A stretch of DNA of 64,000 nt from an uncultured Oscillospiraceae bacterium (GTDB lineage: Bacteria > Bacillota > Clostridia > Oscillospirales > Ruminococcaceae). Of the stretch, positions 779 to 33,615 are shown piece after piece. Under the pieces are notes generated by a model, which saw only the letters and a list, made by a program, of their open reading frames with translations, did not search any database and was not told the DNA's origin. Position numbers and translations under genes: made by a program. The DNA is taken from contig CASGAN010000004.1 in the NCBI GenBank assembly GCA_949299455.1, positions 51,602-115,601 on the forward strand, written 5' to 3'. How positions within the stretch are numbered: the first letter of the stretch is position 1; each line of letters starts with the position of its first letter.

Positions 779-2659
779 ATGCTTACTTTAAAACTTGATG
801 CCTCATCATCCCAATATGCACCGCAGATTGAATTGCTTTCCGCAATCGTTCCGGTGCGCCTTGCAGACGACGGGCTGACCCTTTCGTGCGAAGCCGGAAA
901 TGATGGCATGACTGTTATGAAACAAGACGGACACGCGCACATCGTGTTCGAAAAACCGTGCGAATTTTTCCGCGGTATTTTAACTCTCATGGAGCATGAA
1001 GCAGACGACACCGTTTCGCTCCATGAAAAAGCTCAGTTTGCGTTTAACGGCCACATGATCGACAACTCCCGCAACGCTGTGTTAAACATGAAAACAGCAA
1101 AAGAAGTCATCATGTACTCCGCACTCATGGGACTCGACAACATCCTGCTTTATAACGAGGAAACGTTTGAAGTGCCGGAGCATCCGTATTTCGGCTATAT
1201 GCGCATGGGCTACACGAAAAAAGACGTCCGCGAATTAAATGATTTCGGCAAACAGTTCGGCGTGACGATCGTTCCGTGCATTCAGACACTTGCACATTTA
1301 GCACAGACACTCCGCTGGGCATGCCACCGCGACATCTGCGACGCAGGCGACACCCTGCTCGTGGAGGAGGAGAAAACATACACGCTCATTGAAGATGTCA
1401 TCCGTTCGTGGCACGACTGCGTCGACACCGCTGTGTTCCACATCGGCATGGACGAGGCATATTACTTAGGCCGCGGCCAGTACTTGAACAAACACGGCTA
1501 CAAACCGCATTTCGAGCTGATGTGCAACCATCTGCGCCGTGTGCTCGACATCTGCAAAAAATACGATTTAAAACCGATGATCTGGAGCGACATGTTCTTT
1601 AACCTCATGTTCGGCGGCCTGTACGCAGACGGCGAGCTCGACCAGAACCTGCTCGACCTCGTCCCGAAAGACGTCACCCTGGTTTACTGGGACTACTACT
1701 CGACCTCGTATGAGCTGTATGACAAACGGTTAAAGAGCCATCTCAAATTCGACAACAAGATCGCATTTGCGGGCGGCGCTTGGAAATGGAGCAGTATCGT
1801 TCCGTCGACCGATCACAGCATGAACGTCACAAAACTCGCCCTCGATGCGTGCCGCGCAAACGGCATCGACACCGTATTTGCAACGGAGTGGGGAGATAAC
1901 GGCGGCGAGGCTTCGATCTATTCGATTCTGCCGGTGCTCTCGCTGTTCGCAGAGGAAAGCTACGGCACGCAGGACGTCGACGCACGCGTGAACAATGCCG
2001 TTTTGGCAATGACCGGCTACACCACCGAGGAGTTCTTAAAAATGTGCGACATCAACCGCACCACCAAAGTGGAGCCGATCGTACCGCACACAAACCCGGG
2101 CAAATACCTGTTCTTCCAGGATGTGCTCATGGGACTGTTCGACTGCCATGTAAACGAAACGTTCCCGGCACACTTTGCGCAGTGTGAGCGCACGCTCGCA
2201 GAGCTGGCTTCGCGCAATCTTCCGGTCTCGTATGTGTTCGACACACTTGCAAAACTCGCGCATGTGCTCGAAGTAAAATGCGACATCGGCATCCGCTTAA
2301 AAGCCGCATATGATAACGGGGACCGTGAAGCCCTTGCAAACATGGCAAACGAGGAATTTGACGAACTTCTTTGCCGCATTGAATCGTTCTATCACGCATT
2401 CCGCACCCAGTGGTACAACGAGAACCGTCCGGGCGGCTTCGATGTGCAGGACCTCCGCATCGGCGGCTTAAAACAGCGCATTGTCACCGCAAAAGATACC
2501 GTAAACGCATATCTTGCAGGCGATATCGACCGCATCGAGGAATTAGAAATCGAGCGTCTGCCGTTCGACTGCCGCACCCCGGGTGAAGACAAGGATGTAA
2601 ACGTCGACTGCAACTTCTGGAACTACATCTCGACGCCGAATGTCAACACTCAGTATTAA
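779..2659 (+). CDS. GH20-like glycoside hydrolase (beta-N-acetylhexosaminidase family)
   Basis: A 626-residue protein. The centre is a GH20 TIM barrel with the family's H-x-G-x-D-E signature (HIGMDEAYYL). D225-E226 are the expected polarising Asp and general acid Glu of substrate-assisted catalysis on N-acetylhexosaminides. A distal WS-D-M-F motif (IWSDMFFNLM) also fits. The N-terminal roughly 100 residues replace the usual GH20b domain. No signal peptide is visible, so it should act inside the cell on imported oligosaccharides. A GGAGGA site precedes the ATG. It is followed by a GH3 gene transcribed in the same direction. The exact substrate cannot be read from sequence, and distant GH20 relatives with other specificities are possible. 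Confidence 0.8.
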   Translation: MLTLKLDASSSQYAPQIELLSAIVPVRLADDGLTLSCEAGNDGMTVMKQDGHAHIVFEKPCEFFRGILTLMEHEADDTVSLHEKAQFAFNGHMIDNSRNAVLNMKTAKEVIMYSALMGLDNILLYNEETFEVPEHPYFGYMRMGYTKKDVRELNDFGKQFGVTIVPCIQTLAHLAQTLRWACHRDICDAGDTLLVEEEKTYTLIEDVIRSWHDCVDTAVFHIGMDEAYYLGRGQYLNKHGYKPHFELMCNHLRRVLDICKKYDLKPMIWSDMFFNLMFGGLYADGELDQNLLDLVPKDVTLVYWDYYSTSYELYDKRLKSHLKFDNKIAFAGGAWKWSSIVPSTDHSMNVTKLALDACRANGIDTVFATEWGDNGGEASIYSILPVLSLFAEESYGTQDVDARVNNAVLAMTGYTTEEFLKMCDINRTTKVEPIVPHTNPGKYLFFQDVLMGLFDCHVNETFPAHFAQCERTLAELASRNLPVSYVFDTLAKLAHVLEVKCDIGIRLKAAYDNGDREALANMANEEFDELLCRIESFYHAFRTQWYNENRPGGFDVQDLRIGGLKQRIVTAKDTVNAYLAGDIDRIEELEIERLPFDCRTPGEDKDVNVDCNFWNYISTPNVNTQY

Positions 2660-2673
2660 ATTATTCAAAAATT

Positions 2674-2700
2674 ACAAACCGGCGAATTTCGCCGGTTTGT
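2674..2700. terminator. Strong hairpin between GH20 and GH3 genes
   Basis: A perfect 13-bp stem (2674-2686 with 2688-2700). There is no T-run on the plus side, but ATTTTT on the minus side. On the mRNA it is more likely a processing or stability hairpin within the operon than an efficient plus-strand terminator. Confidence 0.5.
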
Positions 2701-2745
2701 GTTGCCGCCCGTGTGCGGACACATATTGAAAAAAGGAGCATTTCT

Positions 2746-4818
2746 ATGAAACAGGAACTGCATGAACTGTACTTACAAAAAGCAAAAGAGCTCGTTTCCA
2801 AGATGACAATCGAGGAGAAAACCTCTCAGCTCTGCTCGGAAGCACCGGCAATCGAGCGTCTGGGCATTCCGGCATATCACTGGTGGAACGAGGGTCTGCA
2901 CGGCGTGGCACGCGCCGGCATCGCAACCATTTTCCCGCAGTCGATCGCACTCGCCGCAACCTTTTCGCGCGAGGCACTGCGTGACTGCGGCCGCATCACC
3001 GCACTCGAGGGCCGTATCAAATACAATGCCGCAGCCGCAAAAGGCGACCGCACGATCTACAAGGGTCTGACCTTCTGGAGCCCGAACATCAACATCTACC
3101 GCGATCCGCGCTGGGGAAGAGGACAGGAAACCTACGGCGAAGATCCGGTGCTCACCAGTGTGTGCGGCGAGGAATACATTAAATCGCTGCAGGAGGGCGA
3201 TGACGACCGCTATCTGCATGCGGCAGCTTGTGCAAAACACTTTGCTGTACACAGCGGACCGGAGGGCGGCCGCCATGGATTCGACAGCGTAGTAAGTGAC
3301 TTTGACTTAAACGATACCTACCTCCCGGCATTCAAATGGTGCGTCGAGGAAGCCGACGTCCAGTCGGTCATGGGTGCATACAACATGATCAACGGCATTC
3401 CGTCGTGCGCACATCCGATGATTGAAGAAAAACTCCGCAAGGAATGGGGATTCACCGGCTATTTCGTTTCCGACTGCGGTGCACTGGCTGACATGCACAT
3501 GTTCTGCCTCGTGACCCACACGGCAATCGAGTCGGCAGCACTTGCATTAAAAGCCGGCTGTGACTTAAACTGCGGACAGGTTTACCTGCACGTATTGCAG
3601 GCATACAACGAGGGCCGCGTCACCGAAGAGGACATCGACCGCGCAGTCACCTGCCTGATGGCAATCCGCTATAAACTCGGCATGTTCGATCCGGAATGCA
3701 GCTACAACAAAGAAACCGATTATTCGCTCGTCGAATGCGACGCACACCGCAAACTCTCTTACGAAGCAGCAGTCCGCAGCGCCGTTCTGCTCAAAAACGA
3801 CGGTGTTCTGCCGCTCGATAAAAACACACTCAAAACCGTCGCAGTCATCGGTCCGAATGCAATCAGCACCAAAGTGCTCGAAGGCAACTACAACGGCCGT
3901 TCCGGCGACTACCGCACCGTGCTTGACGGTGTAAAACGTGTCTGCGGCGACGACGTACGTGTGCTGTATGCGGCAGGCTGTCCGCTGTGTGCACTGACTG
4001 ACGAGAGCTGTGCCGGCCCGCGCGATAACTTCGCAGAGGCGCTCACTGTTGCAGAAGCGGCAGACGTTGTGATTTTGTGCATGGGTCTTGACCCGACCAT
4101 CGAGGGTGAAGAGGGCGACGCAAACAACGAATACGGCGCAGGCGACAAATCAGGCGCATTCCCGGGACTTCAGCCGGAACTCATGGAGAAAATCGCCGCA
4201 CTCGGCAAACCGACCGTTCTTATTCCGTTTGCAGGCGGTGCGCTTGACTTAAACCGCGCAAGCGAAATCATGAATGCAATCCTGTTCGCATGGTATCCGG
4301 GCGTTATGGGCGGCGACGCAATCGCTGATCTTTTATTCGGCGTACGCAACCCAAGCGGCAAAACACCGGTCACATTCTACCGTTCGCTCGACGAACTGCC
4401 GGCATTCACCGATTACACAATGGAGGGCCGCACCTACCGCTATATGAAGAACGACGCGCTCTATCCGTTCGGCTTCGGTCTTTCCTACACGACGTTCTCG
4501 TTTGGTGCACCGCGTGTGACTGCAAACGACGAGCCGGGCCGCTATACGCTCGAGGTCGATGTGACAAACACCGGCGACAAAGCAGGCGAAACGGTTGTCG
4601 AGATCTATGCGACATACGGCAAAGAGCGTTACATCACACCAAACTGCAAGCTGTGCGCATTCGACCGCGTTTCTTTGGAGGCAGGCGAAACAAAAACCGT
4701 CACACTCGAGGTAGAGCCGACATTCATTCTGCTCACCGACAAAGACGGCAGCCGCTATCTGCCGGAGCATATCACATTCCACGCGCTGCCGTATGCAAAC
4801 GCATCGTTTGGCATGTAA
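2746..4818 (+). CDS. Glycoside hydrolase family 3 beta-glycosidase
   Basis: A 690-residue GH3 enzyme with three-part architecture: (alpha/beta)8 domain, alpha/beta sandwich (from about 330) and C-terminal FnIII-like domain (from about 580). The nucleophile is D243 in VSDCGAL. Upstream motifs PNINIYRDPRWGRGQETYGE and AKHF are typical of the beta-xylosidase/beta-glucosidase branch. There is no signal peptide, so it is cytoplasmic. The ATG at 2746 follows AAAAGGAGC; the alternative GTG at 2713 lacks a ribosome binding site. It is paired with a GH20-like gene under one promoter, suggesting intracellular trimming of a mixed or aminosugar-containing oligosaccharide (inference). Whether it removes xylose, glucose or another sugar is not decidable here. 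Confidence 0.88.
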   Translation: MKQELHELYLQKAKELVSKMTIEEKTSQLCSEAPAIERLGIPAYHWWNEGLHGVARAGIATIFPQSIALAATFSREALRDCGRITALEGRIKYNAAAAKGDRTIYKGLTFWSPNINIYRDPRWGRGQETYGEDPVLTSVCGEEYIKSLQEGDDDRYLHAAACAKHFAVHSGPEGGRHGFDSVVSDFDLNDTYLPAFKWCVEEADVQSVMGAYNMINGIPSCAHPMIEEKLRKEWGFTGYFVSDCGALADMHMFCLVTHTAIESAALALKAGCDLNCGQVYLHVLQAYNEGRVTEEDIDRAVTCLMAIRYKLGMFDPECSYNKETDYSLVECDAHRKLSYEAAVRSAVLLKNDGVLPLDKNTLKTVAVIGPNAISTKVLEGNYNGRSGDYRTVLDGVKRVCGDDVRVLYAAGCPLCALTDESCAGPRDNFAEALTVAEAADVVILCMGLDPTIEGEEGDANNEYGAGDKSGAFPGLQPELMEKIAALGKPTVLIPFAGGALDLNRASEIMNAILFAWYPGVMGGDAIADLLFGVRNPSGKTPVTFYRSLDELPAFTDYTMEGRTYRYMKNDALYPFGFGLSYTTFSFGAPRVTANDEPGRYTLEVDVTNTGDKAGETVVEIYATYGKERYITPNCKLCAFDRVSLEAGETKTVTLEVEPTFILLTDKDGSRYLPEHITFHALPYANASFGM

Positions 4819-4840: not shown

Positions 4841-4887
4841 AAAAACGCCCGAATGGAGCAGGAAAACGGCTTCATTCGGGCGTTTTT
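4841..4887 (+). terminator. Intrinsic terminator after the GH3 gene
   Basis: A 15-bp inverted repeat (4841-4855 with 4873-4887) with a 17-nt loop and terminal T-run. Confidence 0.8.
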
Positions 4888-4899
4888 GGCGTGATCGAA

Positions 4900-4928
4900 T
4901 TGACAGTGCGGCCAAAAAAGAATATAAT
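4900..4928 (+). promoter_or_regulatory. Perfect sigma-A-type consensus promoter of the glycan operon
   Basis: TTGACA (4900-4905), 17-bp spacer, TATAAT (4923-4928). This is an exact consensus match immediately after the preceding terminator. It should drive strong constitutive transcription of the six genes up to the terminator at 12721. Confidence 0.9.
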
Positions 4929-4999
4929 AAATAAAATCAGATTGTGTGTCGTTAGAAAAGAATAATATTGATTTTCCCGAATGGAATGGAGCCTGATCT

Positions 5000-6121
5000 A
5001 TGAATATAACGATTGTCGGAGGCGGAAACATCGGAACTGCAATGGCGGTGCAAATGGCCAAAAACGGTGCAGCTGTCACAATCATGACATCCAAACCATC
5101 CAAATTTCAACCCACACTGGTCATGACAGATCTCGATACAGACGTTCAAACAACGGTTTCAGGCGTCCGTATCACAGATGACCCAAAAATCGCAGCAGAT
5201 GCACAGATTGTCTTTTTCACCGTTCCATCTTCTGTTTTCCCGCAAAGCTTTGCACAAATTGCGCCGTATCTCAAAAACGAAACGGCGGTTGGCGTTGTCC
5301 CGGGGACAGGGGGAGCGGAATTTTTTTGCCGTTCTTTCATCGAGGCAGGCGGCACGTTTTTTGGCTTTGACCGTGTGCCGTTTATCAGCCGGCTGATTGA
5401 ATACGGCGCGCATGTGCGTGCGCAGAAAAAATCGTCCGTGCGCATCGCCGCATTTCCGGCAAGCCGGGCGTCATCGCTGTGCGCGGCGGTAAAAAAGCTA
5501 TTGTCGATCGACTGCACGGTGATAAAAAACTACCTCACGATCACATTCACGCCGTCAAATCCGATTCTTCACACCTCAAGGCTATATGCGATGTATGCAG
5601 GCCGTCCGATTGATGCGCTGTATGACCATAACATCCTGTTTTATGAAGAATGGGACGACGCTTCGTCCGAATTGCTGTTTGCATGCGACAGCGAACTGCA
5701 GTCGATCTGCCGCGCACTTTCCGATTTTGATTTAAGCGGTGTCATTCCGCTTTCTGTTCACTATGAATCCAAAACGCCGGCGCTGCTCACACAAAAAATC
5801 CGCAGTATCCGCTCATTCCGCGGCATCGGATCACCGATGAAACCGGCAAACGGCGGCTATACGGTCGATCTCTCGTCGCGCTATTTCACAGAGGATTTCC
5901 CGTTCGGGCTCTGCATTCTGCGCGGCTTCGGTGAGATTGCCGGTGTCAAAACGCCGCATATGGACAAAATACTCTCGTGGTATGAATCGATCGCCGGTGT
6001 GCATTATTTAAAGGACGGCGTACTGTGCGGCGCAGACTGCGCACAAACTGCAATTCCACAGCGGTTTTCTCTTGTGAGCGCAGATGATTTATATGCATTT
6101 TATCAGACCAGTATCGTATAA
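5000..6121 (+). CDS. NAD/NADP octopine/nopaline (opine) dehydrogenase family protein
   Basis: A 373-residue protein. An N-terminal Rossmann fold carries VGGGNIGTA (residues 6-14). The C-terminal opine dehydrogenase domain carries the family motif SNPILHTSRL with H191, the expected catalytic His, and a C-terminal YFTEDFPFGL. Family members reductively condense a 2-oxo acid with the amino group of a second molecule. As first gene of a glycan-assembly operon, followed after 18 nt by a fused cytidylyltransferase/PLP enzyme, it plausibly makes an N-carboxyalkyl amine used as a glycan substituent (inference). Free-living opine catabolism or an unrelated imine reduction are alternatives. Confidence 0.8.
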   Translation: MNITIVGGGNIGTAMAVQMAKNGAAVTIMTSKPSKFQPTLVMTDLDTDVQTTVSGVRITDDPKIAADAQIVFFTVPSSVFPQSFAQIAPYLKNETAVGVVPGTGGAEFFCRSFIEAGGTFFGFDRVPFISRLIEYGAHVRAQKKSSVRIAAFPASRASSLCAAVKKLLSIDCTVIKNYLTITFTPSNPILHTSRLYAMYAGRPIDALYDHNILFYEEWDDASSELLFACDSELQSICRALSDFDLSGVIPLSVHYESKTPALLTQKIRSIRSFRGIGSPMKPANGGYTVDLSSRYFTEDFPFGLCILRGFGEIAGVKTPHMDKILSWYESIAGVHYLKDGVLCGADCAQTAIPQRFSLVSADDLYAFYQTSIV

Positions 6122-6139
6122 CGAAAGGATGACGAATCA

Positions 6140-7957
6140 ATGCAAGCGATTATTTTGGCTGCCGGAATGGGCAAACGATTAAAGGAACTGACAAACAACG
6201 CAACCAAATGCATGGTAAAAGTAAACGGTGTCACGATGATTGAGCGGATGCTCACATCGCTTGACCGCCTCAGTTTAAACCGTATTATTCTCGTCGTCGG
6301 CTATGAGGGCGACAAGCTCAAAGAATATGTGGGAACGCTTTCGGTCAAAACACCGATCGAATTTGTCGAAAACAAGATCTATAACAAGACAAACAATATC
6401 TACTCGCTGTATCTTGCAAAAGATCATCTTTTAAACGAGGACACACTCCTGCTCGAATCGGATCTTGTGTTCGAGGATGCCGTGCTTGACCGCATTGTAA
6501 ACGACCCGCAGCCGTCTTTGGCGCTCGTTGCAAAATTTGAAAGCTGGATGGACGGCACGGTCGTCGAGCTTGACGACGAGGATAACATCGTCCGCTTCCG
6601 TTCGAAACGGGAATTCCGCTTTGAGGACATCAAAAACTATTATAAAACCGTCAACATCTATAAATTCTCAAAAGAGTTTTCGCGCTCGCACTATGTCCCG
6701 TTTTTGGAGGCATACTGCAAAGCACTCGGCAACAACGAGTATTACGAGCAGGTATTAAAAGTCATCACCCTGCTCGACAAACCGGATATCAAAGCGGTCC
6801 GCCTGCACGACGAAGCATGGTACGAAATTGACGACGTGCAGGATTTGGACATTGCAGAGTCGATCTTCACAAACGATAAAGACCGCCTCAAAAAACTTCA
6901 GAGCCGGTTCGGCGGTTATTGGCGTTATCCGCATCTGATTGATTTTTGCTATCTCGTCAATCCGTTTTATCCGTGCCAGAAGCTGATGGACGAAATCAAA
7001 GCGAATTTCGAAGTGCTTACTACCAACTATCCGTCGGGGATGCGTGTCAACAGCCTGCTTGCCGCAAAACTGTTCGGTCTGCGGGCATCGCATGTCGTTG
7101 TCGGAAACGGTGCGGCAGAGCTCATCAAATCACTCATGACCAAGCTGTCCGGTAAAATCGGCGTGATTTTCCCGACGTTTGAAGAATATCCGAACCGCAG
7201 AGATGGTGAGGAGATTGTCCCGTTTATGCCGCAAAACAGCGATTTTTCCTATACGGCGGATGATCTGATCGCGTTTTACACTGCACATCCGGTCAGTGTT
7301 TTGACGCTCATCAACCCGGACAACCCGTCGGGCAACTATATTGAAAAAGCGGATGTTCTGCGCCTTGCAAAATGGGCGGAACAGACCGGCACACGGCTGA
7401 TTGTGGACGAGTCCTTTGTCGATTTCTGCGACAAAGAGGAGTCGCCGTCGCTTCTGTCGACCGAGCTTCTGCTCTCGTATCCGCAGCTGATTGTCGTCAA
7501 GAGTATTTCGAAATCGTACGGTGTGCCGGGCGTTCGTCTTGGTATTTTAGCAAGCGCCGACGAATCGCTCATTTCGTTTATCAAACAGGATGTGGCAATC
7601 TGGAACATCAACTCGTTCGGCGAATTTTATATGCAGATTGCGGAAAAATATCAATCGGATTATCAAGCCGCACTGCGCCGGTTCTATGACGTGCGCCGGG
7701 ACTATGTATCCGCACTGCGCGAAATCAAAGGCCTGCGCGTGATTGATTCGCAGGCAAACTACCTGATGTGCGAGATTCTGCCGCCGCACACCGCCGCCGA
7801 AGTCACTGAGCATCTGCTGTGTGCACACAACATCCTCATCAAAGATCTCAGTACAAAACGCGGCTTTGACGGCGGACAGTATATCCGCATTGCCGTCAAA
7901 CGTCCCGAAGAAAACGATGTGCTCGTTCGTGCACTCAAACAGCTGTTAAGTGAGTAA
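6140..7957 (+). CDS. Fusion: LicC-like nucleotidyltransferase + PLP aminotransferase/decarboxylase
   Basis: A 605-residue two-domain enzyme. Residues 1-240 form a sugar-nucleotidyltransferase-like fold with LAAGMGKRL, a lysine-containing TKCMVKVNG segment, and a closing WYEIDDVQDLD typical of LicC/choline-phosphate cytidylyltransferases. Residues 265-605 form a fold-type I PLP enzyme of the HisC/CobD group, with NPDNPSGNY and VDESF motifs and the internal-aldimine lysine K458 in SISKSYG. No choline kinase or importer is present, so the PLP domain may itself make the phosphorylated amine that the first domain activates (inference). A LicD transferase lies in the same operon. The substrate could be ethanolamine-, aminopropanol- or aminoethyl-type; histidinol-phosphate aminotransferase annotation would be misleading. 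Confidence 0.8.
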   Translation: MQAIILAAGMGKRLKELTNNATKCMVKVNGVTMIERMLTSLDRLSLNRIILVVGYEGDKLKEYVGTLSVKTPIEFVENKIYNKTNNIYSLYLAKDHLLNEDTLLLESDLVFEDAVLDRIVNDPQPSLALVAKFESWMDGTVVELDDEDNIVRFRSKREFRFEDIKNYYKTVNIYKFSKEFSRSHYVPFLEAYCKALGNNEYYEQVLKVITLLDKPDIKAVRLHDEAWYEIDDVQDLDIAESIFTNDKDRLKKLQSRFGGYWRYPHLIDFCYLVNPFYPCQKLMDEIKANFEVLTTNYPSGMRVNSLLAAKLFGLRASHVVVGNGAAELIKSLMTKLSGKIGVIFPTFEEYPNRRDGEEIVPFMPQNSDFSYTADDLIAFYTAHPVSVLTLINPDNPSGNYIEKADVLRLAKWAEQTGTRLIVDESFVDFCDKEESPSLLSTELLLSYPQLIVVKSISKSYGVPGVRLGILASADESLISFIKQDVAIWNINSFGEFYMQIAEKYQSDYQAALRRFYDVRRDYVSALREIKGLRVIDSQANYLMCEILPPHTAAEVTEHLLCAHNILIKDLSTKRGFDGGQYIRIAVKRPEENDVLVRALKQLLSE

Positions 7958-8017
7958 CAGCCGCTTGTTCGTTTGATGATTTGTTTCGTTTTATCTATTT
8001 AAAGAGGTGCCTATTAT

Positions 8018-9451
8018 TTGACTAAAGACAGCAAGATTTTTTCCGTTTGTTCCCGTATCTTCGGCACAGAAGGCTTTGTGTGCGCACTGACTGCCGTGAT
8101 GATTGCGCAGTATCTGATTATCTTCCCGCCGGCACTTTGCTCCGTGCTGAATCTCATTCTCTATGCATGGGGTGCACCGCTCATGGCAGTGCATCTTGTG
8201 CGGCAACAATCATTTTCGAAAAAAAGCAACAAGCTATGGCTGCTTTTCTACCTCATCGTGTCGTTTTTTGCCGTTTCCATGGTGAGCATTCTGATTCATG
8301 TCCCGCAAAACATCGTGAGCAATCTTTCCGCGTGGTATTCGTGCGGCCTGCAGGTCTTTTTCTGCTGTTATGTGATTGCCTGTGCCAAAAAAGAACAGGC
8401 CCGGCGGCTGTTTTCGCTCATCATTTTAACAACAGTGCTTGTCACCCTTGCGGTCGCCGCCGCATGCCTTGTCATGCAGTTTTTGAATATCTACCCGCTC
8501 AAAGCCACGACCTCGCGCTTTACCGGACTGTTTTATAACCCAAACAACTGCTTTGTCTGTGCGATGTCCGTTCTGCTGAGCTTTTTATACTGGATGCTTT
8601 TTCATAAGCTTCGTGCGCTCATGATTGTAAACATGCTGCTGCAAGCGTCGCTTATCGGTTTGTCCGGGTCGCGGTCGCTTCTCATCCTGATGGGTGTGTT
8701 TATCGTCCTGATGCCGTGCATCTATGCGGCGCGCCGGTATCAAAAAAATCTCAAAAAAGCCGTCGGCTGTGCAGCACTGCTGATGGTTTCGGGTGTACTC
8801 GCTTTTCAAGTGATGTCATATGCCGGACAAGCGCTTCCGCAGATCGGCCACACCATTGAGACAACCGTTTCGTCCTGGTTTTCGTCCGAAGAAGGAGGTA
8901 GCTCATCCTCAAATGGAAGCGCCCAGTCACCGCCCGACACAAACCGCGCCGAAGGAAACACCGATGCGTCCGATTCGTTCCGGATGCTGCTTTTACAGTC
9001 GGGACTCAAAACATTTGCAAAATATCCGCTGTTCGGCGTAGGACCGCGCAACATTGCGGATGCTGTGCGCGCAACAGCGCCTGATGCCAACTTAAACGGT
9101 ATTGACGGCGGCGGTGTGCACAACACCTATTTGCAGCTGCTCATCAGCATCGGTATTGTCGGATTTTTGATCTTTGTGCTGATTCTTGTCTATTGTTTTG
9201 CCGCTTTTACAAAAGCCATGCGTGCCCAGCAAGAAAAAGACGGCACAATCTGCTTTGAACTGCTGTTTTTGCTCGCGGCAATTCTCTGTATCGGCGTATA
9301 CGGCGCGTTTGAATCGACGCTGTTTTTTGCAAACTCGCCGGCCGCTGTCACATTCTTCTCTATGACGGGATTTTTCCTGCACACCTGCTTTTGCCGCACT
9401 TCACCCGCTGTTTTTACGCGCAGACTGCATGAAAAAAAGGAGGTAAGCTGA
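8018..9451 (+). CDS. O-antigen ligase/polymerase (Wzy/WaaL-like) membrane protein
   Basis: A 477-residue polytopic membrane protein with about 10-12 hydrophobic segments and one large hydrophilic loop (about residues 285-370). The loop is rich in Ser/Gly and ends with GVGPRNIADAV and GGGVHNTYLQLL, the Wzy_C (PF04932) pattern with its conserved His. It would polymerise or transfer lipid-linked oligosaccharide units on the outer face of the membrane. Translation starts at a TTG (8018) 9 nt after AGAGGTG; no better start exists. Its stop overlaps the next start (TGATG), so translation is coupled to the GT2 gene. Confidence 0.8.
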   Translation: MTKDSKIFSVCSRIFGTEGFVCALTAVMIAQYLIIFPPALCSVLNLILYAWGAPLMAVHLVRQQSFSKKSNKLWLLFYLIVSFFAVSMVSILIHVPQNIVSNLSAWYSCGLQVFFCCYVIACAKKEQARRLFSLIILTTVLVTLAVAAACLVMQFLNIYPLKATTSRFTGLFYNPNNCFVCAMSVLLSFLYWMLFHKLRALMIVNMLLQASLIGLSGSRSLLILMGVFIVLMPCIYAARRYQKNLKKAVGCAALLMVSGVLAFQVMSYAGQALPQIGHTIETTVSSWFSSEEGGSSSSNGSAQSPPDTNRAEGNTDASDSFRMLLLQSGLKTFAKYPLFGVGPRNIADAVRATAPDANLNGIDGGGVHNTYLQLLISIGIVGFLIFVLILVYCFAAFTKAMRAQQEKDGTICFELLFLLAAILCIGVYGAFESTLFFANSPAAVTFFSMTGFFLHTCFCRTSPAVFTRRLHEKKEVS

Positions 9452-10443
9452 TGCTTTTCTCGATCATCGTTCCGGTCTATGGGGTGGAAGCGTATCTTGC
9501 ACAGACGGTTCATTCTGTGCGCTCCCAGGATTTTCACGACTGGGAACTCATTTTGGTGGATGACGGTGCAAAAGACCGTTCGGGTCAAATCGCCGACGAA
9601 TGCGCCGCACAGGATGACCGCATCCGTGTGATCCACAAGCAAAACGGCGGCGTTTCCTCGGCGCGCAACACGGGACTATTCGCCGCTAAAGGCGAATATA
9701 TCGTCTGGCTCGACGGCGACGACCTGCTTTTTAAAAACAGCCTCTCGCGCCTTGCACAGTATCTTGAAAAAAATCCGCACGCCGATATCATTCTGCAAAA
9801 CTATCAGACATATCAAAACAACGCAATACAGCCGGGAAGCGACTATTCGTTTGATTCTTCGAAGCTGACCGATGCAGATCACACGCTTTCCTATCTGTTT
9901 GGCACCTGGCCCGATTTCCCGTGGGCAATCTGGGCGAATGTCTACCGCAGAGAGATGCTCATCACACACAATCTGCTGTTTGACGAGACGATGAGCATGA
10001 ATGAGGACGGCAACTGGCTGTTGGATGCGTTTTTGCATGCGCGTACATTCGGCGCCGCAGACAACACGATGTATCTCTACCGCATCGATGTGTCTGGCTC
10101 GCTCGTTCACCAAAAAGCAAAGCTTTCGCACTATGAAAGCAGTTACAAGATGTATACCCGCTGGTTTTCGTTTTTTGCGTCTGCTGACAATCTGCCGCTT
10201 TCATCCCCGGTGATGACCGGCCGGCTTGCACGCGGCTATGTCAATATTGCAACTTCCATTTACGACATGGACAAATGCGACCGCAAAAAAGCCATCGAGC
10301 TGTTTGCCGCACACAAAGATATCTGCGCCCATTCCGCACAGCGCACACACCGGCCGTTTCTGCCGATTCTGCGGATTTTCGGCGTGCGATGCTATCTGCG
10401 CACCATCTGCATGGCATTCCACCTGAAAGAAAAACTGCATTGA
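9451..10443 (+). CDS. Family 2 glycosyltransferase
   Basis: A 330-residue GT-A fold enzyme. The start SIIVPVYGVEAYL, VDDGAKDRS (D37-D38) and the DXD-like LDGDDL (residues 87-92) are classic GT2 motifs for nucleotide-sugar and metal binding. The C-terminal third carries no clear extra domain but has a short amphipathic end. It shares one nucleotide with the upstream Wzy-like gene and is 16 nt from the flippase, so it is an integral part of the repeat-unit assembly operon. The sugar it adds cannot be told. Confidence 0.88.
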   Translation: MLFSIIVPVYGVEAYLAQTVHSVRSQDFHDWELILVDDGAKDRSGQIADECAAQDDRIRVIHKQNGGVSSARNTGLFAAKGEYIVWLDGDDLLFKNSLSRLAQYLEKNPHADIILQNYQTYQNNAIQPGSDYSFDSSKLTDADHTLSYLFGTWPDFPWAIWANVYRREMLITHNLLFDETMSMNEDGNWLLDAFLHARTFGAADNTMYLYRIDVSGSLVHQKAKLSHYESSYKMYTRWFSFFASADNLPLSSPVMTGRLARGYVNIATSIYDMDKCDRKKAIELFAAHKDICAHSAQRTHRPFLPILRIFGVRCYLRTICMAFHLKEKLH

Positions 10444-10459
10444 TTCAGAAAGGAAACGT

Positions 10460-11872
10460 ATGAACGAGATCAAAAAAATTGCGAAATCGACGGTCATCTA
10501 TCTGTTCGGCAGTGTCGGCACAAAAATCATCACGTTTTTCCTTCTGCCGATTCTCACCGCAAACATTCCCGAAGCCGATTTCGGTATCTATAACACCAGC
10601 TGTTCGTATGCCACGCTCATTTCCTCCGTGCTGTTTTTGGACGTTTGGGCGGGCATCATGCGCTTTATGTTCGATTACAAAGCGAAAAAAGAACAGTATC
10701 AGGTCATTTACAGCGGCATCGTGCTGTTTGTCTCCTCGCTTGCACTGTATATCGGCGCGTTTTTCATCTTCAATGCATTCACGCCGATGACATATCCATG
10801 GCTCGTGCTGTTATACGGCGCGTCGCTGTGCTTCCAGAATCTTTACAGCTATATTGCCCGCGCACTCGGAAACAATTCGCTGTTTGCCGTTTCCGGCATT
10901 GTATCAACGCTTGTCAATGCCGGTGTAACGTTTGTGCTCGTACTGCTGTTAAACTTCGATTACAGCGCGCTGTACATCGCATATGTGTTGGGTATTCTCG
11001 CTCAGTGCATCATTCTCGAAGCAAAGGTGCGCCTGTTTGCAAACTTTAAATCCGCCGGCATCAAAAAAGAACTGGTTCGTCAGATTCTGCGGTTTTCTCT
11101 GCCGCTGTGCATCAACTCCGCGTGCTACTGGATGCTAAACGGCTTCAACACGATTTTCGTCTTTGCACAGCTTGGCAGTGAACAGACCGGATATTATGGC
11201 ATGGCGGGCAAATTCGCCGTCATGATCAGCCTTGTCACCTCGTGTTTTTCGATGGCATGGCAGGAGCTTGCATTCAATAAATCCGACCAGAGCAAGGAAA
11301 CCTGTGCGTTTTACTCGACGGCTGTACAGCTTTACGCAAAAGCGCTGTTTTGCGGCTATCTGCTCTTGATGCCGTTTATTTCGATCATTTTCCCGTTTTT
11401 TATCCGCGGCACATACGGTCCGGTCAAGGCCATCATTCCGCTTTATATGCTCGCGACGATTGTGAGCATCATGAGCACGTTTTTGGGCAATATTTTAACC
11501 GCCTACAAACGAAATCAGACGATTTTTGTCTCCACACTGTGCGCCTGCACCGTAAACGTCGTGATCGCCGTTTTGCTCATTGACCTGATCGGCGTGCAGG
11601 CGGCTTCACTTGCAATGCTGTGCGGCTATTTTGTCTGCGATTTTGTCCGGATTCTGTTTATCAAACAGTCGATTCCGCTGCGGTTCGGCTGGAAGTCACT
11701 GCTGTATATGATTCCGCTGTGCGTGCTGTTCTCTGTGGTCTATTTGTACAGCGGCATCTGGCTCGACATTCTCATGTTCTTGTTGGCCGCGGCAATTACG
11801 CTGTTTTTGTTTAAAGACTATGTCCGCATTGCATATGCAAAGCTTATATCCATGATGAAAAAGACATCATAA
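10460..11872 (+). CDS. Wzx-like polysaccharide flippase (MOP/PST superfamily)
   Basis: A 470-residue membrane protein with about 12-14 hydrophobic segments spread over its length. It begins with the PST-type amphipathic entry and first helix (KSTVIYLFGSVGTKIITFFLLP). Proteins of this group move undecaprenyl-linked glycans across the cytoplasmic membrane. Its place between a GT2 and a LicD gene, with a Wzy-like protein upstream, fits a Wzx/Wzy-type route. The ribosome binding site AGAAAGGAAA precedes the ATG. Confidence 0.87.
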   Translation: MNEIKKIAKSTVIYLFGSVGTKIITFFLLPILTANIPEADFGIYNTSCSYATLISSVLFLDVWAGIMRFMFDYKAKKEQYQVIYSGIVLFVSSLALYIGAFFIFNAFTPMTYPWLVLLYGASLCFQNLYSYIARALGNNSLFAVSGIVSTLVNAGVTFVLVLLLNFDYSALYIAYVLGILAQCIILEAKVRLFANFKSAGIKKELVRQILRFSLPLCINSACYWMLNGFNTIFVFAQLGSEQTGYYGMAGKFAVMISLVTSCFSMAWQELAFNKSDQSKETCAFYSTAVQLYAKALFCGYLLLMPFISIIFPFFIRGTYGPVKAIIPLYMLATIVSIMSTFLGNILTAYKRNQTIFVSTLCACTVNVVIAVLLIDLIGVQAASLAMLCGYFVCDFVRILFIKQSIPLRFGWKSLLYMIPLCVLFSVVYLYSGIWLDILMFLLAAAITLFLFKDYVRIAYAKLISMMKKTS

Positions 11873-11898
11873 CCGGTCAGAATAGGGGAGTTTTTACC

Positions 11899-12714
11899 AT
11901 GAATCAGGCACTTACATTGGACGAATTAAAACAGATTGAGCTTGATATCCTCAAGCAGTTTCACGCGTTCTGCGAAGCGCACAATCTGCGCTATACACTG
12001 ACCTACGGCACACTGCTGGGCGCTGTGCGGCATAAAGGATTCATTCCGTGGGACGATGACATCGACGTCATGATGCCGCGTCCTGACTATGAGAAATTTG
12101 TATCGCTGACGTTAAACGGATTCGGCGATCATGTTAAAACCGTCTGCCACCAAAACGACGCAAAATATCCGTATCCGTTTGCAAAGGTCATCGACACGAA
12201 CACCCGTCTGATCGAAACGCTCGTGGCACCGGGCAGTTCGCTCGGCGTCTATATCGACATTTTCCCGATTGACGGCACACTCGATCCAAACGATCCGGCA
12301 TATGCGTCGTATGAAAAAAAGATAAACCGCAACTGGATGCTCGTTCAGATGGCATCGATGAAGCTTACAAAAGGCAAGAGCCTTGCACGCACAATCGTAA
12401 AATATCTGACTGTTCCGTTTGCACGGCTGATCGGCCCGCGCTATTTTGTCAAAAAGCAGACCAAACTGCTTTCGTCCTATCCGTATGACACCTCAAAGCT
12501 CGTTCATTTGTCGGCCATTGCAGGGCTCAACTGCACCGCACTGCCGCACGAAGTCTATGAAGAACGAATCCTTGCGCCGTTTGAGTCGGAGATGGTTTAT
12601 ATCCCTGCGCAGTACGACTTGTTCCTGCGCACCGTTTACGGCGACTATATGACGCCGCCGCCCAAAGAAAAACAGGTGACACAGCACACCTTCACGGCAT
12701 ATCGAATCAAATAA
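11899..12714 (+). CDS. LicD-family phosphotransferase (first copy)
   Basis: A 271-residue LicD domain (PF04991) protein. The N-terminus has YGTLLGAVRHKGFIPWDDDI, where D52-D54 and D56 form the metal-binding acidic cluster shared with nucleotidyltransferase-fold enzymes. C-terminal MTPPPKEKQ is the usual LicD end. LicD enzymes transfer phosphocholine-like groups from CDP-activated donors to glycans, which matches the LicC-like domain encoded in the same operon. It is the last gene before the terminator at 12721. A second, divergent LicD is at 32672-33472. Confidence 0.88.
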   Translation: MNQALTLDELKQIELDILKQFHAFCEAHNLRYTLTYGTLLGAVRHKGFIPWDDDIDVMMPRPDYEKFVSLTLNGFGDHVKTVCHQNDAKYPYPFAKVIDTNTRLIETLVAPGSSLGVYIDIFPIDGTLDPNDPAYASYEKKINRNWMLVQMASMKLTKGKSLARTIVKYLTVPFARLIGPRYFVKKQTKLLSSYPYDTSKLVHLSAIAGLNCTALPHEVYEERILAPFESEMVYIPAQYDLFLRTVYGDYMTPPPKEKQVTQHTFTAYRIK

Positions 12715-12720
12715 ACAGAT

Positions 12721-12756
12721 AACACCGGCGCGGGAAAATCCCGCGCCGGTGTTTTT
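12721..12756. terminator. Strong bidirectional terminator between convergent genes
   Basis: A 15-bp GC-rich stem (12721-12735 with 12739-12753), AAA loop, then TTTTT. The stop of the minus-strand lipoprotein gene lies at its edge (12755), so it probably serves both operons. Confidence 0.9.
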
Positions 12757-26813: not shown

Positions 26814-26850
26814 AAAAAATCCTGTTGGGGAAGTCCCAACAGGATTTTTT
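26814..26850. terminator. Bidirectional terminator between degV-like and GT4 genes
   Basis: A 16-bp inverted repeat (26814-26829 with 26835-26850), 5-nt loop, with A-run before and T-run after, serving two convergent transcripts. Confidence 0.88.
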
Positions 26851-28037
26851 TATCCAAGCAGTTCATGATAAAGCGAAAGATACTTTTGAAACCGCTCATT
26901 TTTGTCATATAATTTTCCACGCGAAACGCACGCCTCTGTTGAAAACGCAGCCGACTGCACAGCATCCGCGAGTGCTTTCACATTTCCTTGTTCGACCACC
27001 ATGCCGCAGGTATCGTCAATGCTCTCGGGACTGCCGCCGGTGCGGTAGGTGATGACCGGCGTGCCGCAGGCAAGCGCTTCTAAATTGGTCGTCGGGAACG
27101 TGTCCTCATAGGTGGGATTCACAAACGCGTGTGCCGCCGTATACAGTGCGGCAAGCTCATGCGCGTTGTTTGTCCGCGTGATGCCAATCACCCGCTCGGG
27201 CAGTGCATCTTTCTGCGCCTGAGTCACACCCACGATGACGACGGAGAAGGAATCGTCGAGCAATTCGCTCAATGCAATCAGATCATCAAAGCCTTTCTGC
27301 TTGGTCCACACACTCGCCACACCGAGGACGATTTTCTTGCCCTTTGGCAGGGAAGCGGAGAGCGGCGCATCGTGTACCGGATGAAAGACCGAGAGGTCAA
27401 TCCCGTTTTCGATGACGCGCACCGGCGTATCTTTGAAAAACGACTGCGATGCAAGGGAACCGAGCCACGCAGACGGTGTGACGATTGTGAGGTTAGAAAG
27501 CGACGTAAACAGCCGTTTTTTCTGCGCATAGTTCCATGCGGAACGGTCAAACACCATGCTCGCCGGATATTCGCCCTTCTGCGCGCAGGTATGACAGCCG
27601 GTTTTCCACTTTTCACAGCCGATCCGGTCAAAATGCGCACAGTGTCCCGTAAATGCCCAGCAGTCGTGCAGTGTCCACACAACCGGCTTATTCTGCGATT
27701 TGAGCCATTCAAACAGCAATTCGATATTCACATAATAGCCGTGGATATTGTGCAGGTGAATGAGATCCGGAGAGAACGCTTGCGCCTCTTTCAAAAACGC
27801 ACGGGTCGCCTGTATCGAATAAAACCCGTGTTTGTCGCTTACACGCGAAAGCACACCGTGCAGATTCACACCAAGCTCCGAACCGATGCGGATGGTATCG
27901 CAGTCGTCGGGCGCTGTGCCGCGTCCATACGCGATTTTGCATAAAAAGCCGTCTTTTTCTGCCGCGCGGGCAAGGTCGGCGGCAATCCGTCCCGTACTGC
28001 CATAGCCGCAGACGGAATTGACTTGCAAAAGCTTCAC
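26850..28037 (-). CDS. Family 4 glycosyltransferase
   Basis: About 395 residues, GT-B fold. N-terminal VNSVCGYGSTGRIA binds the acceptor/donor phosphate. Mid-protein cysteines (CAHFDRIGCEKWKTGCHTC) are a feature of a WcaC-like subgroup. The C-terminal donor site has ENGIDLSVF and the E-x7-E-like EDTFPTTNLEALACGTP. GTG 28037 is preferred because it gives the usual M-K-L-L-Q-V-N start 8 nt after GGGGG; the ATG at 28052 is the alternative. It overlaps the end of fnlC and is last in the fnl operon. Confidence 0.85.
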   Translation of the reverse strand: MKLLQVNSVCGYGSTGRIAADLARAAEKDGFLCKIAYGRGTAPDDCDTIRIGSELGVNLHGVLSRVSDKHGFYSIQATRAFLKEAQAFSPDLIHLHNIHGYYVNIELLFEWLKSQNKPVVWTLHDCWAFTGHCAHFDRIGCEKWKTGCHTCAQKGEYPASMVFDRSAWNYAQKKRLFTSLSNLTIVTPSAWLGSLASQSFFKDTPVRVIENGIDLSVFHPVHDAPLSASLPKGKKIVLGVASVWTKQKGFDDLIALSELLDDSFSVVIVGVTQAQKDALPERVIGITRTNNAHELAALYTAAHAFVNPTYEDTFPTTNLEALACGTPVITYRTGGSPESIDDTCGMVVEQGNVKALADAVQSAAFSTEACVSRGKLYDKNERFQKYLSLYHELLG

Positions 28038-29164
28038 ATCGTTTTCCCCCATGTGGTGATGTTGACGATTTTTGCATAGCTTTGAATGAGCTTCACGACC
28101 TTCACCGACACGTTTGTATCCGCATAGTCCTCTGCCATGACGACTTCTTCGTTGTTTTCACGCATAGAAACCGCCAGCTCGAGTGCTTGTTCAACGTCGT
28201 CGCCTGTAATTCCGCCAATGACGACCGAACCTTTATCAAGCACCTCCGGCCGCTCCGTCGAGGTACGGATCAGCACGCCTGCAAAGTGGAGCATTGCCGA
28301 TTCTTCGGACAAGGTGCCGCTGTCGGACAGCACGCAGTATGCGTTCATCTGGAGTTTGTTATAGTCCATGAAGCCGAACGGCTTTAAGCTCTGCACGAGC
28401 GGATGGAATTTGAAATCGCGCTGTTCGATGAATTTGCGGCTGCGCGGATGCGTCGAATAGATGACCGGCATCTGATACCGCTCGGCAATGCGGTTGACCG
28501 CATTCATCAGCGAGAGAAAATGCGCTTCATTGTCGATATTTTCCTCACGGTGTGCGGAAACCAAGATATATTTGCCCGCTGTCAGATTCATGCGCTCAAG
28601 TACATCACTTGCTTCGATTTTGTCCATATGATCGCGCAGAACCTCGCGCATCGGCGAACCCGTCACGAAAATCGTCTTGCCGTCGATGCCCTCGCTCAAC
28701 AGATAGCGGCGGGAATGCTCGGTGTAGGGGAGGTTGATGTCGGAAATATGATCGACGATCTTGCGGTTGATCATCTCGGACACATTCCAGTCCCAGCAGC
28801 GGTTGCCGGCTTCCATGTGGAAAATCGGAATTTTTGACCGTTTTGCCGAAACTGCCGCGAGCGCCGAGTTGGTATCACCCAGAATCAGCACGGCGTCCGG
28901 ACGCTCTTTTTCCATGACTTCATACGATTTGGCGATGATGTTTCCCATTGTTTCGCCTAAATTTTTGCCGACGCTGTCTAAATAATAATCCGGCTCGCGC
29001 AGGCCGAGGTCCTCAAAAAAGACCTGGTTTAAGGTGTAGTCCCAGTTTTGGCCGGTGTGCACCAAAATATGGTCAAAGTATTTGTCGCACGCTTTGATGC
29101 ACGCCGACAGACGGATGATCTCCGGCCGTGTGCCCAAAACGGTCATGACTTTTAACTTGTTCAT
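28034..29164 (-). CDS. fnlC: UDP-2-acetamido-2,6-dideoxy-talose 2-epimerase, FnlC/WbjD/CapG type
   Basis: A 376-residue UDP-GlcNAc 2-epimerase-family enzyme. N-terminal VLGTRPEIIRLS, HTGQNWD, and HREENIDN are family motifs. Adjacent to fnlB and fnlA it would catalyse the last step, C2 epimerisation to UDP-N-acetyl-L-fucosamine. Plain UDP-GlcNAc 2-epimerase (MnaA) is the alternative, but the full fnlABC order and the cysteine-free His-rich core (FHMEAGNRCWD) favour FnlC. Confidence 0.87.
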   Translation of the reverse strand: MNKLKVMTVLGTRPEIIRLSACIKACDKYFDHILVHTGQNWDYTLNQVFFEDLGLREPDYYLDSVGKNLGETMGNIIAKSYEVMEKERPDAVLILGDTNSALAAVSAKRSKIPIFHMEAGNRCWDWNVSEMINRKIVDHISDINLPYTEHSRRYLLSEGIDGKTIFVTGSPMREVLRDHMDKIEASDVLERMNLTAGKYILVSAHREENIDNEAHFLSLMNAVNRIAERYQMPVIYSTHPRSRKFIEQRDFKFHPLVQSLKPFGFMDYNKLQMNAYCVLSDSGTLSEESAMLHFAGVLIRTSTERPEVLDKGSVVIGGITGDDVEQALELAVSMRENNEEVVMAEDYADTNVSVKVVKLIQSYAKIVNITTWGKTM

Positions 29165-29187
29165 TCGTATTCTCTCCGTTTCTCTGC

Positions 29188-30300
29188 TTACTCGATGACC
29201 GGCAAAAAGAACGTATCCGGTTTTTGGGGGTCAAACGGCTCGTTTGCCCACATGACGGTCACAAGATCGGTCTGGCCAACGTTTTGAATGCTGTGGGTAT
29301 AGCCGGTCGGAATGTCGACGACGGTCAGCTCCTCGCCGCTTACACGGTATTCAATCACTTCGTCGCTGTCGATTTTGCGGAAGCGGATCGATGCCTCACC
29401 CGACACGACTAAAAATTTCTCGTTTTTCGTGTGATGCCAGTGGTTGCCCTTTGTAATGCCCGGTTTTGCCACATTGACAGACACCTGTCCGCGGTCCGGT
29501 GTGCGGAGCATCTCTGTAAACGAGCCGCGCTCGTCTTTGTGCATCGTAAGCGGATAGGAAAATTCGTCTGTCGGCAGATAGCTTAAATAGGTGCTGTAGA
29601 GCTTTTTGGCAAGCGGATCGGATAAATCCGGAAGACCGAGTGTTTTGCGGTTTTCAGCAAATGAGGTAATGAGCGATGCAAGGAGGCCGAGTGTTGCCTC
29701 ATGCGTAACCGGCACACAGCAGAAATCGCCGTCGCGCGTCGGATTGCCCGAAACGGCACGGCAGAGCTCATCCACCACATCGTCGATATAGCAAAGTGTC
29801 AGCTTCACCGACGGGTCATTGACGGTGATCGGTTCATGATGGGCGATGTTATGGCAAAACGTTGCGATGACGCTGTTATAGTTCGGGCGGCACCATTTGC
29901 CGAACAAATTCGGAAAGCGGTACACAAGCACCGGCGCGCCGGTTTCCTTTCCGTAAGCGAACAGGAGGTCTTCGCCGGCTTTTTTGCTCTCGCCGTACGG
30001 ATTTTGGCGTTCTGCCTGGATCGAGGAGGCGAGCATCACCGGCGCTTTGTTTCCTGCGGCTTTGAGCGCATCGAGCAAAGTCGACGTAAAGCCGAAATTT
30101 CCCTTCATGAATTCGTCGTCCGTTTTCGGGCGGTTTACACCCGCCAGATGAAATACAAAATCACACGATGCGGCATATTGCGTGAGTAAAGCAGGGTCGG
30201 TGTCGATGTCATACGAGAGCACCTCAAACCCGCGGTTTAAAAGCTCTGCTTTTAAGTTTTTGCCCACAAATCCGTTTGCACCGGTAATGAGGATCTTCAT
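29188..30300 (-). CDS. fnlB: FnlB/WbjC/CapF bifunctional epimerase-reductase with cupin domain
   Basis: A 370-residue protein with two domains. Residues 1-245 are an SDR fold (ITGANGFVGKNL, the tyrosine-containing NPYGESKKAGED). Residues 250-370 are a cupin with GNHWHHTKNEKFLV metal-binding histidines. CapF-type enzymes epimerise at C3 through the zinc-cupin and reduce C4 with NADPH. The start at 30300 follows AAAGGAG; the first 11 in-frame residues of a longer reading overlap the intergenic gap. Between fnlA and fnlC. Confidence 0.92.
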   Translation of the reverse strand: MKILITGANGFVGKNLKAELLNRGFEVLSYDIDTDPALLTQYAASCDFVFHLAGVNRPKTDDEFMKGNFGFTSTLLDALKAAGNKAPVMLASSIQAERQNPYGESKKAGEDLLFAYGKETGAPVLVYRFPNLFGKWCRPNYNSVIATFCHNIAHHEPITVNDPSVKLTLCYIDDVVDELCRAVSGNPTRDGDFCCVPVTHEATLGLLASLITSFAENRKTLGLPDLSDPLAKKLYSTYLSYLPTDEFSYPLTMHKDERGSFTEMLRTPDRGQVSVNVAKPGITKGNHWHHTKNEKFLVVSGEASIRFRKIDSDEVIEYRVSGEELTVVDIPTGYTHSIQNVGQTDLVTVMWANEPFDPQKPDTFFLPVIE

Positions 30301-30317
30301 GTTGTTTGCTCCTTTGC

Positions 30318-31352: not shown

Positions 31353-31358
31353 AATGAC

Positions 31359-32552: not shown

Positions 32553-32589
32553 AATAGAACCCTTCCGATCTGCATAATACTGTAATTTC

Positions 32590-32618
32590 ATTTTACTACA
32601 GCGCACCTGTTTTCGCAA
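32590..32618 (-). promoter_or_regulatory. Promoter of the fnl operon
   Basis: Minus strand TTGCGA (32618-32613), 17-bp spacer, TAAAAT (32595-32590). It lies 38 nt before the TTG start and after the terminator of the licD gene upstream. Confidence 0.65.
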
Positions 32619-32640
32619 GTCTATGTTCATACAGACACGC

Positions 32641-32668
32641 AAAAAACGGCACCGAAGTGCCGTTTTTT
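32641..32668. terminator. Terminator separating the second licD from the fnl operon
   Basis: A 12-bp stem (32641-32652 with 32657-32668), stable tetraloop (CGAA on plus, TTCG on minus), A/T runs at both ends. Confidence 0.85.
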
Positions 32669-32671
32669 CTG

Positions 32672-33472: not shown

Positions 33473-33506
33473 GCTGCCACCTGCTTGTCTTTTTATCGTA
33501 TCTTTA

Positions 33507-33534
33507 ATGATACACGATACGAAAAAAAAGTCAA
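33507..33534 (-). promoter_or_regulatory. Promoter of the second licD gene
   Basis: Minus strand TTGACT (33534-33529), 16-bp spacer with an 8-T tract, TATCAT (33512-33507). Confidence 0.6.
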
Positions 33535-33615
33535 GAACAGCGCAAAAAAGGCGAATCTGCATCGTATTTGTTTTTGAAAAAGAGTTTTTTTTTGGTTTTC
33601 TTTTTTAAAAAAACA

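Follow-up and report, generated by a model that had tools for sequence, protein, structure and literature searches.

Which phosphorylated amine would a LicD-type phosphotransferase attach to a surface glycan when its operon also encodes an opine dehydrogenase and a cytidylyltransferase fused to a pyridoxal phosphate (PLP) enzyme? The question is raised by a six-gene operon at positions 4900–12756 of a 64-kb window (the whole stretch of DNA analysed: positions 51,602 to 115,601 of contig CASGAN010000004.1, forward strand) from an uncultured Oscillospiraceae bacterium (GCA_949299455.1), the genome of which is 99.76% complete; coordinates below are positions in this window unless another locus is named. 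Judging from protein families, active-site residues, tree position and conserved gene neighbourhoods, we consider the chances about even that an N-carboxyalkylated phosphoethanolamine is built by the operon and put on the glycan, in four steps. The PLP half of the fusion would decarboxylate L-phosphoserine to ethanolamine phosphate, and the nucleotidyltransferase (NTase) half of the same polypeptide would convert the latter, with cytidine triphosphate (CTP), to cytidine diphosphate (CDP)-ethanolamine. The opine dehydrogenase would then condense the amine, most probably that of CDP-ethanolamine, with a 2-oxo acid (e.g. pyruvate) and reduce the resulting imine, and LicD would attach phospho-(N-carboxyalkyl)-ethanolamine to a glycan unit which, going by family membership, the family 2 glycosyltransferase, Wzx and Wzy proteins would assemble, flip and polymerise.

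The fusion is encoded by a 605-residue frame (6140–7957, + strand) with Pfam matches to NTP_transf_3 (3.5e-11) and Aminotran_1_2 (2.1e-30). It is not an assembly artefact, because 80 loci from other genomes, the best 80 of 180 relatives, hold the fusion near full length (matches of at least 592 of the 605 residues, 59–98% identity in the best segment), the nearest named relative being that of Merdimmobilis hominis (98%). For the C-terminal half (6875–7957), the best PDB match is 6oux (3e-46, 32% identity), followed by two chains named CobD or HisC, Salmonella CobD 1lc5 (2e-23) and HisC 8bj1 (2.5e-19); alignment places the Schiff-base lysine at K458. We take 6oux to be SMUL_1544, the L-serine O-phosphate decarboxylase for norcobamide. 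A tree was built from 51 rows, 18 fusions and 17 HisC-like rows among them. In it, the fusions form a single clade (100/100) which is sister to 6oux (100/100); both lie on the CobD side, and the HisC-like rows split off at a 99/98 branch. The 94 residues invariant across the 18 fusions include C270, Y271, L272, S299 and S425, which are common to 6oux and are each found in under 10% of the 11 CobD and 17 HisC rows. The PLP half scores best with the NCBIfam model of CobD (TIGR01140), yet its 165.4 bits lie far under the cut-off of 290.55, and with the HisC model (TIGR01141) it reaches 137.4 bits against a cut-off of 276.55. Elsewhere, the genome carries a separate CobD-like gene (289.4 bits, just below the cut-off of 290.55) as well as a HisC-like one, so that the fused copy would be free for another job. 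The tree, the model cut-offs and the separate copies together disfavour an ordinary HisC or CobD. Comparison with these enzymes by sequence, where the sequence-only reading proposed to compare predicted structures, sets the PLP half apart from ordinary HisC, and the idea that it makes a phosphorylated amino alcohol gains indirect support from its place beside 6oux on the CobD side; decarboxylation would be the reaction predicted from sequence. SerC is encoded in the genome (527 bits), and phosphoserine is therefore a normal intermediate of serine in this organism.

The N-terminal half (6140–6874), a cytidylyltransferase domain of the LicC/PntC type, has Treponema PntC (6pd1, 7e-16) and pneumococcal LicC (1jyk, 3e-15) as its closest PDB entries. 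Two glutamates, E106 and E203 (the second placed by reading of the alignment), are conserved in 56 of 56 fusions and match E104 and E196 of PntC, not D105 and D192 of LicC. A passage of PMC6697681 describes Glu104 and Glu196 of PntC as positioned to hold the amine of 2-aminoethylphosphonate, LicC having Asp105 and Asp192 instead, and cites earlier work in which LicC preferred phosphocholine over phosphoethanolamine 2700-fold. The selectivity residues of the fusion thus look made for a small primary amine. In terms of the substrate class assigned earlier to this domain, the glutamate pair supports a small amine, and the aspartate pair of phosphocholine-type contacts is not present. Phosphoenolpyruvate (PEP) mutase (PF13714) has no match in the genome, 11 of 14 controls being positive, which makes a phosphonate an unlikely substrate; we infer that ethanolamine phosphate is the closest phosphate counterpart of 2-aminoethylphosphonate.

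The opine dehydrogenase-like protein (5000–6121, + strand) matches Octopine_DH (PF02317, 5e-32, 111 bits against a cut-off of 30) and the PDB entry 3c7a (2.8e-35). Its His191, Arg294 and Asp299 align with H212, R324 and D329 of octopine dehydrogenase, the histidine and arginine being conserved in 30 of 30 alignment rows and the aspartate in 28. For the His-Asp pair, presumably catalytic, and for the arginine, we assume the roles that they have in octopine dehydrogenase. The enzyme thus resembles that family in its model match and these residues and differs from it in its setting, a glycan operon beside a cytidylyltransferase fusion.

The neighbourhoods of the 80 fusions tie the two genes together. 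An opine dehydrogenase gene touches the fusion in 31 loci and lies farther off in one, an enzyme of the OCD/mu-crystallin family does so in 15 and two, respectively, and in three loci it is a DUF1015 gene that touches the fusion, where the opine gene would otherwise stand. Counted among the 15 is a 136-residue frame matching OCD (L034:10901–11311, 3.6e-48), evidently a fragment given that its relatives have about 310 residues. Opine and OCD genes occur together in none of the 80 loci, against 6.8 expected by chance (p 4e-5, with related loci not independent). In a phylogeny of 81 fusions, the starred branches cannot be reconciled with fewer than 13 changes of the opine label and 11 of the OCD label; for instance, the sister fusions L026/L048 and L006/L007 differ in their reductase labels. 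Clustering of the OCD label barely exceeds that of shuffles (69 of 500 were as low), as would be seen if exchange is frequent but also if the signal is weak. The nearest PDB relatives of an OCD representative are pyrroline-2-carboxylate reductase, ketimine reductase, mu-crystallin, SbnB, alanine dehydrogenase and iminosuccinate reductase, and such enzymes as a rule handle a C=N bond beside a carboxylate. Because two families of imine reductases repeatedly adjoin the same fusion, this arrangement is the best sign that the product of the fusion is the amine on which these reductases act. LicD lies within the flanks of 42 of the 80 loci, namely 22 of the 32 with an opine gene, 12 of the 17 with OCD, one of the three with DUF1015 and seven of the 28 with none of these; its presence with a reductase (34/49) exceeds that without reductase or DUF1015 (7/28; p 3e-4). 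The trio of opine dehydrogenase, fusion and LicD that the sequence-only reading singled out hence recurs in other genomes. Within the family, the fusion was found in two of 148 genomes (the present one and one of the same genus); the opine gene adjoins it in both, with 33 bases between the matched stretches. One of the 80 loci holds a second, weaker relative of the fusion (L050:16103–18139, 1e-25).

DUF1015 may be a serine kinase; if so, its replacement of the opine gene would make phosphoserine the substrate of the PLP half. Searches by sequence and profile gave no PDB match for DUF1015, and there was no NCBIfam match. A passage of PMC12704722 lists 'DU1015' as one of the domains that occur fused to the ParB-CTPase fold, which SerK and SbnI, both serine kinases, adopt; this does not make DUF1015 itself a kinase. 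In other loci, the reductase slot beside the fusion can thus hold a C=N reductase of the OCD family or, in a few of them, the possible serine kinase DUF1015.

A further clue to the order of the steps comes from the close subfamily of the opine enzyme (profile A2), which is otherwise rare, being found in three of 148 family genomes and, at E 1e-50, in three of 398 phylum genomes, the present one included in each case (in the phylum, up to five candidates per genome were scored, and G304, 174 bits, was left out). The third family genome with this subfamily, G142, encodes it in an operon (L143:3883–10350) with two LicD proteins, a class V aminotransferase, an OCD enzyme and a fusion of glycerol-phosphate cytidylyltransferase with a GFO/IDH/MocA dehydrogenase, a set that may provide another way to a CDP-amino-alcohol. 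The two operons have in common a cytidylyltransferase, a PLP enzyme, an opine enzyme and LicD, an overlap suggesting that a CDP compound is what the opine enzyme works on. Since the NTase residues suit a primary amine, and since L143 pairs the opine subfamily with an unrelated cytidylyltransferase, N-carboxyalkylation may follow cytidylation. This would reverse the order given in the pathway proposed earlier, which is otherwise largely borne out on indirect grounds, among them the ties of the fusion to the opine gene (31/80) and LicD (42/80). The cytidylyltransferase-dehydrogenase fusion of the L143 type occurs in eight of 398 phylum genomes; the seven such regions besides L143, some cut by contig ends, include LicD in four and have no opine or OCD match at 1e-5. 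In another locus (L166:6828–10062, – strand), a cytidylyltransferase-dehydrogenase fusion lies beside a free-standing HisC/CobD-like PLP enzyme and LicD.

Several observations weigh against the proposed chain. In the PLP half, seven invariant fusion residues match most CobD sequences and not 6oux (one falls in a gap of 6oux), and K568, a lysine in 56 of 56 fusions, is an arginine in all twelve printed CobD, 6oux, 3ftb and HisC rows (R323 of CobD); with lysine in place of this arginine, substrate binding by the PLP half would differ in some way. The identity that we assume for 6oux was not confirmed by a literature search. Neither opine, OCD nor DUF1015 is found in 28 of the 80 loci, in six of which a contig end lies within 1.2 kb of the fusion, and LicD was not seen in the flanks of 38 of the 80. 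Conversely, PF02317, which occurs in 31 of 196 class genomes, is as a family not tied to the fusion: among 29 loci fetched, of 43 listed matches besides the present one, none has a fusion within 1.5 kb of the PF02317 gene. Most of these 29 enzymes score low against the opine enzyme of the window; two belong to its close subfamily and are likewise without the fusion. Finally, OCD and opine enzymes coexist in L143, contradicting strict alternatives.

The substitution at K568 also bears on the first of four rival explanations, in which the PLP half is an aminotransferase converting dihydroxyacetone phosphate to serinol phosphate, with CDP-serinol then used by the opine enzyme and LicD. The lysine is where this enzyme departs from the CobD arginine, the L143 gene set would fit an aminated CDP-glycerol, and a precedent exists in Campylobacter jejuni, for which a passage of PMC12409886 reports that Cj1437 makes serinol phosphate for the capsule. 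However, in the tree the PLP half pairs with 6oux within the CobD side, away from HisC, the NTase residues fit a small amine, and DUF1015 beside the fusion would hint at phosphoserine, provided that it is a serine kinase; on balance, we regard the serinol route as unlikely. Much the same standing, if marginally lower, is given to a scheme in which CDP-ethanolamine or something close to it is the product of the fusion, and the opine enzyme has another substrate in the glycan, for instance an amino sugar or free amino acid. This scheme is illustrated by L144, where a close opine relative adjoins sugar aminotransferase and Wzx-like genes without a fusion; no cytidylyltransferase was seen in the 18 kb of this locus (Pfam scan of three of the 15 other frames, inspection by eye of the remainder). 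Carboxyethylated amino acids are glycan components as well. N-Carboxyethyl-phosphoethanolamine is known from Proteus O14. The sequence-only reading leaned on the occurrence of this compound in O-antigens, which we did not find in the openly licensed PMC literature; N-carboxyethyl-lysine and N-carboxyethyl-alanine were found instead, as O-antigen constituents in a passage of PMC10609480. Against a separate target of the opine enzyme stands the direct contact of the fusion with opine genes in 31 and OCD genes in 15 of the 80 loci, with many switches between them on the tree.

It is quite improbable, in our estimate, that the PLP half decarboxylates phosphothreonine as CobD would, leading to CDP-aminopropanol: CobD is its best NCBIfam model, but the 165 bits fall far under the 290.55 cut-off, its sister is 6oux and no CobD row, and a CobD-like gene exists elsewhere in the genome. 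A phosphonate pathway, with the NTase half acting on 2-aminoethylphosphonate as PntC does, is highly improbable despite the nearness of the NTase half to Treponema PntC in the PDB and the two glutamate contacts in common, as the genome is devoid of PEP mutase, which disfavours this pathway here, and the fused PLP domain is of class I/II, not of PntC's class V.

Returning to N-carboxyalkylated phosphoethanolamine, the wider distribution of the fusion suggests a more general, and more tentative, interpretation. It is possible, though we would not put it at even chances, that the fusion is the core of a widespread, horizontally moving cassette in which one bifunctional enzyme takes phosphoserine to CDP-ethanolamine and passes it to an exchangeable amine-tailoring enzyme. 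The carriers, under the same tentative claim, would be gut Bacillota, Bacteroidota, Akkermansia, Treponema and, more distantly, Fusobacterium, and the exchangeable enzyme would be an opine dehydrogenase, an OCD-type imine reductase or, in one case, a methyltransferase. No other amine-tailoring family stood out by Pfam among 18 proteins neighbouring reductase-free fusions, a mixture of glycosyltransferases, flippase-like proteins, regulators, a pseudouridine synthase, a ROK protein and others. A plasmid search returned 18 records holding a distant fusion, in whole or in part, and six of the neighbourhoods were opened. In Fusobacterium vincentii (L160:10001–12869), LicD lies upstream of the fusion (49% identity), which is followed by a DUF1015 gene overlapping it by 14 bases and a gene that is flippase-like by look. 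A plasmid of Gloeothece (L163:6977–10439) carries the fusion, an S-adenosylmethionine (SAM) methyltransferase and LicD in a row, and this trio could make a methylated phosphoethanolamine. The Rahnella fusion precedes a CDP-alcohol phosphatidyltransferase, and a phosphocholine cytidylyltransferase and a CDP-alcohol phosphatidyltransferase are found near that of Mesorhizobium. By their gene content, these four neighbourhoods fit a CDP-ethanolamine-like product for LicD or CDP-alcohol transferases; the other two, those of the Priestia and Pseudonocardia fusions (about 33% identity), lie in other contexts; they say nothing of such a product and are among the points against the proposed chain. A phage search gave five records, all matching the PLP half only. 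Four records named Listeria phage (H12–H15) contain a CobD/HisC-like PLP stretch that shares 27% identity with this half.

If the cassette reading is true, it would imply a hidden class of opine-like phosphodiester decorations of surface glycans, the charge and handedness of which are set by the reductase, and rare opine chemistry would be in use by many gut bacteria. The combination of the fusion, an opine or OCD gene and LicD would then serve as a genome marker for glycans otherwise not looked for.

How does the operon compare with known systems? Like Lic-1 (LicA, LicB, LicC and LicD), which decorates a glycan with a phospho-amino-alcohol, it has a LicC-like cytidylyltransferase domain and LicD; unlike Lic-1, its NTase contacts are glutamates rather than the aspartates of LicC, an opine enzyme is added, and the amino alcohol would be made by the cell. 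The choline kinase LicA (PF01633), noted earlier as missing from the operon, has no match in the entire genome (five of 14 controls were positive, two of them over the cut-off), so that a phosphocholine pathway fed by host choline is unsupported. The choline permease LicB is likewise absent from the operon, to which the search for LicB was confined. The bacterium may thus decorate its glycan with a phospho-amino-alcohol without host choline or ethanolamine. PntC, fused to a 2-aminoethylphosphonate transaminase (6pd1), has the same order of an N-terminal NTase and a C-terminal PLP enzyme, with cytidylyl activation of a small amine. It differs in its class V PLP domain, that of the fusion being of class I/II (Aminotran_1_2, no Aminotran_5) and on the CobD side, and the lack of PEP mutase in the present genome points to a phosphate rather than a phosphonate. 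With CobD and 6oux, the PLP half has in common its place in the 6oux clade and C270, Y271, L272, S299 and S425; fusion to an NTase, residence in glycan loci and K568 in place of arginine set it apart. The closest functional parallel, compared by description rather than by sequence, is in C. jejuni, where, according to a passage of PMC12409886, the PLP enzyme Cj1436, described alongside Cj1437, decarboxylates serine phosphate to ethanolamine phosphate for the capsular polysaccharide. There, the same passage indicates, the amine ends up in an amide bond with glucuronic acid and the phosphate is lost; no CDP donor is named in it. The main text of a survey of phosphocholine genes (PMC10434233) never uses 'aminotransferase', 'fusion', 'decarboxyl' or 'opine', and we found no description of such a self-made, opine-modified donor route in openly licensed PMC papers. 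As decoration of the Lic type is known, the proposed system would not form a new category; what would be new is an amino alcohol that is self-made and opine-modified.

The organization of the locus is that of a single transcription unit, as the sequence-only reading had it: six genes on the + strand, a perfect promoter and a terminator. The promoter is of the sigma-70 type (TTGACA-17-TATAAT, 4900–4928, + strand, 12/12 consensus match). Exact TTGACA/TATAAT pairs with spacers of 16–18 were found twice in the window (4900 and 49027), against 0.023 expected from its base make-up; a looser promoter scan gave 10 sites, with 10.8 in shuffles and hence no excess. The second exact promoter, at 49027, also has a spacer of 17. 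Downstream of the opine dehydrogenase and fusion genes lie those for a Wzy-like polymerase or ligase (Wzy_C, PF04932, 3.6e-18; 8018–9451, TTG start), a family 2 glycosyltransferase (Glycos_transf_2, PF00535, 6.9e-37; 9451–10443), a Wzx-like flippase (Polysacc_synt, PF01943, 2.8e-14; 10460–11872) and the LicD-type phosphotransferase (PF04991, 6.2e-47, 161 bits against a cut-off of 22.6; 11899–12714), all on the + strand. From the first gene to the sixth, the intergenic gaps are 18, 60, –1, 16 and 26 bases. The operon ends in an intrinsic terminator hairpin, T-rich on both sides (12721–12753, + strand; 15 pairs, –33.1 kcal/mol, z –8.7). On the upstream side, a hairpin with a T run (about 4841–4887, + strand; –32.3 kcal/mol, z –7.0), the likely terminator of a GH3 gene, sets the operon apart, as the strong hairpin does downstream. 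Directly upstream, the GH20C and GH3 glycosidase genes occupy 779–4818 and are followed by this hairpin. A second surface-glycan operon is found at 26850–33562 (– strand), with another LicD (32672–33562), two glycosyltransferases and genes of an apparent pathway to uridine diphosphate N-acetyl-L-fucosamine (UDP-L-FucNAc), all but the LicD being named by look.

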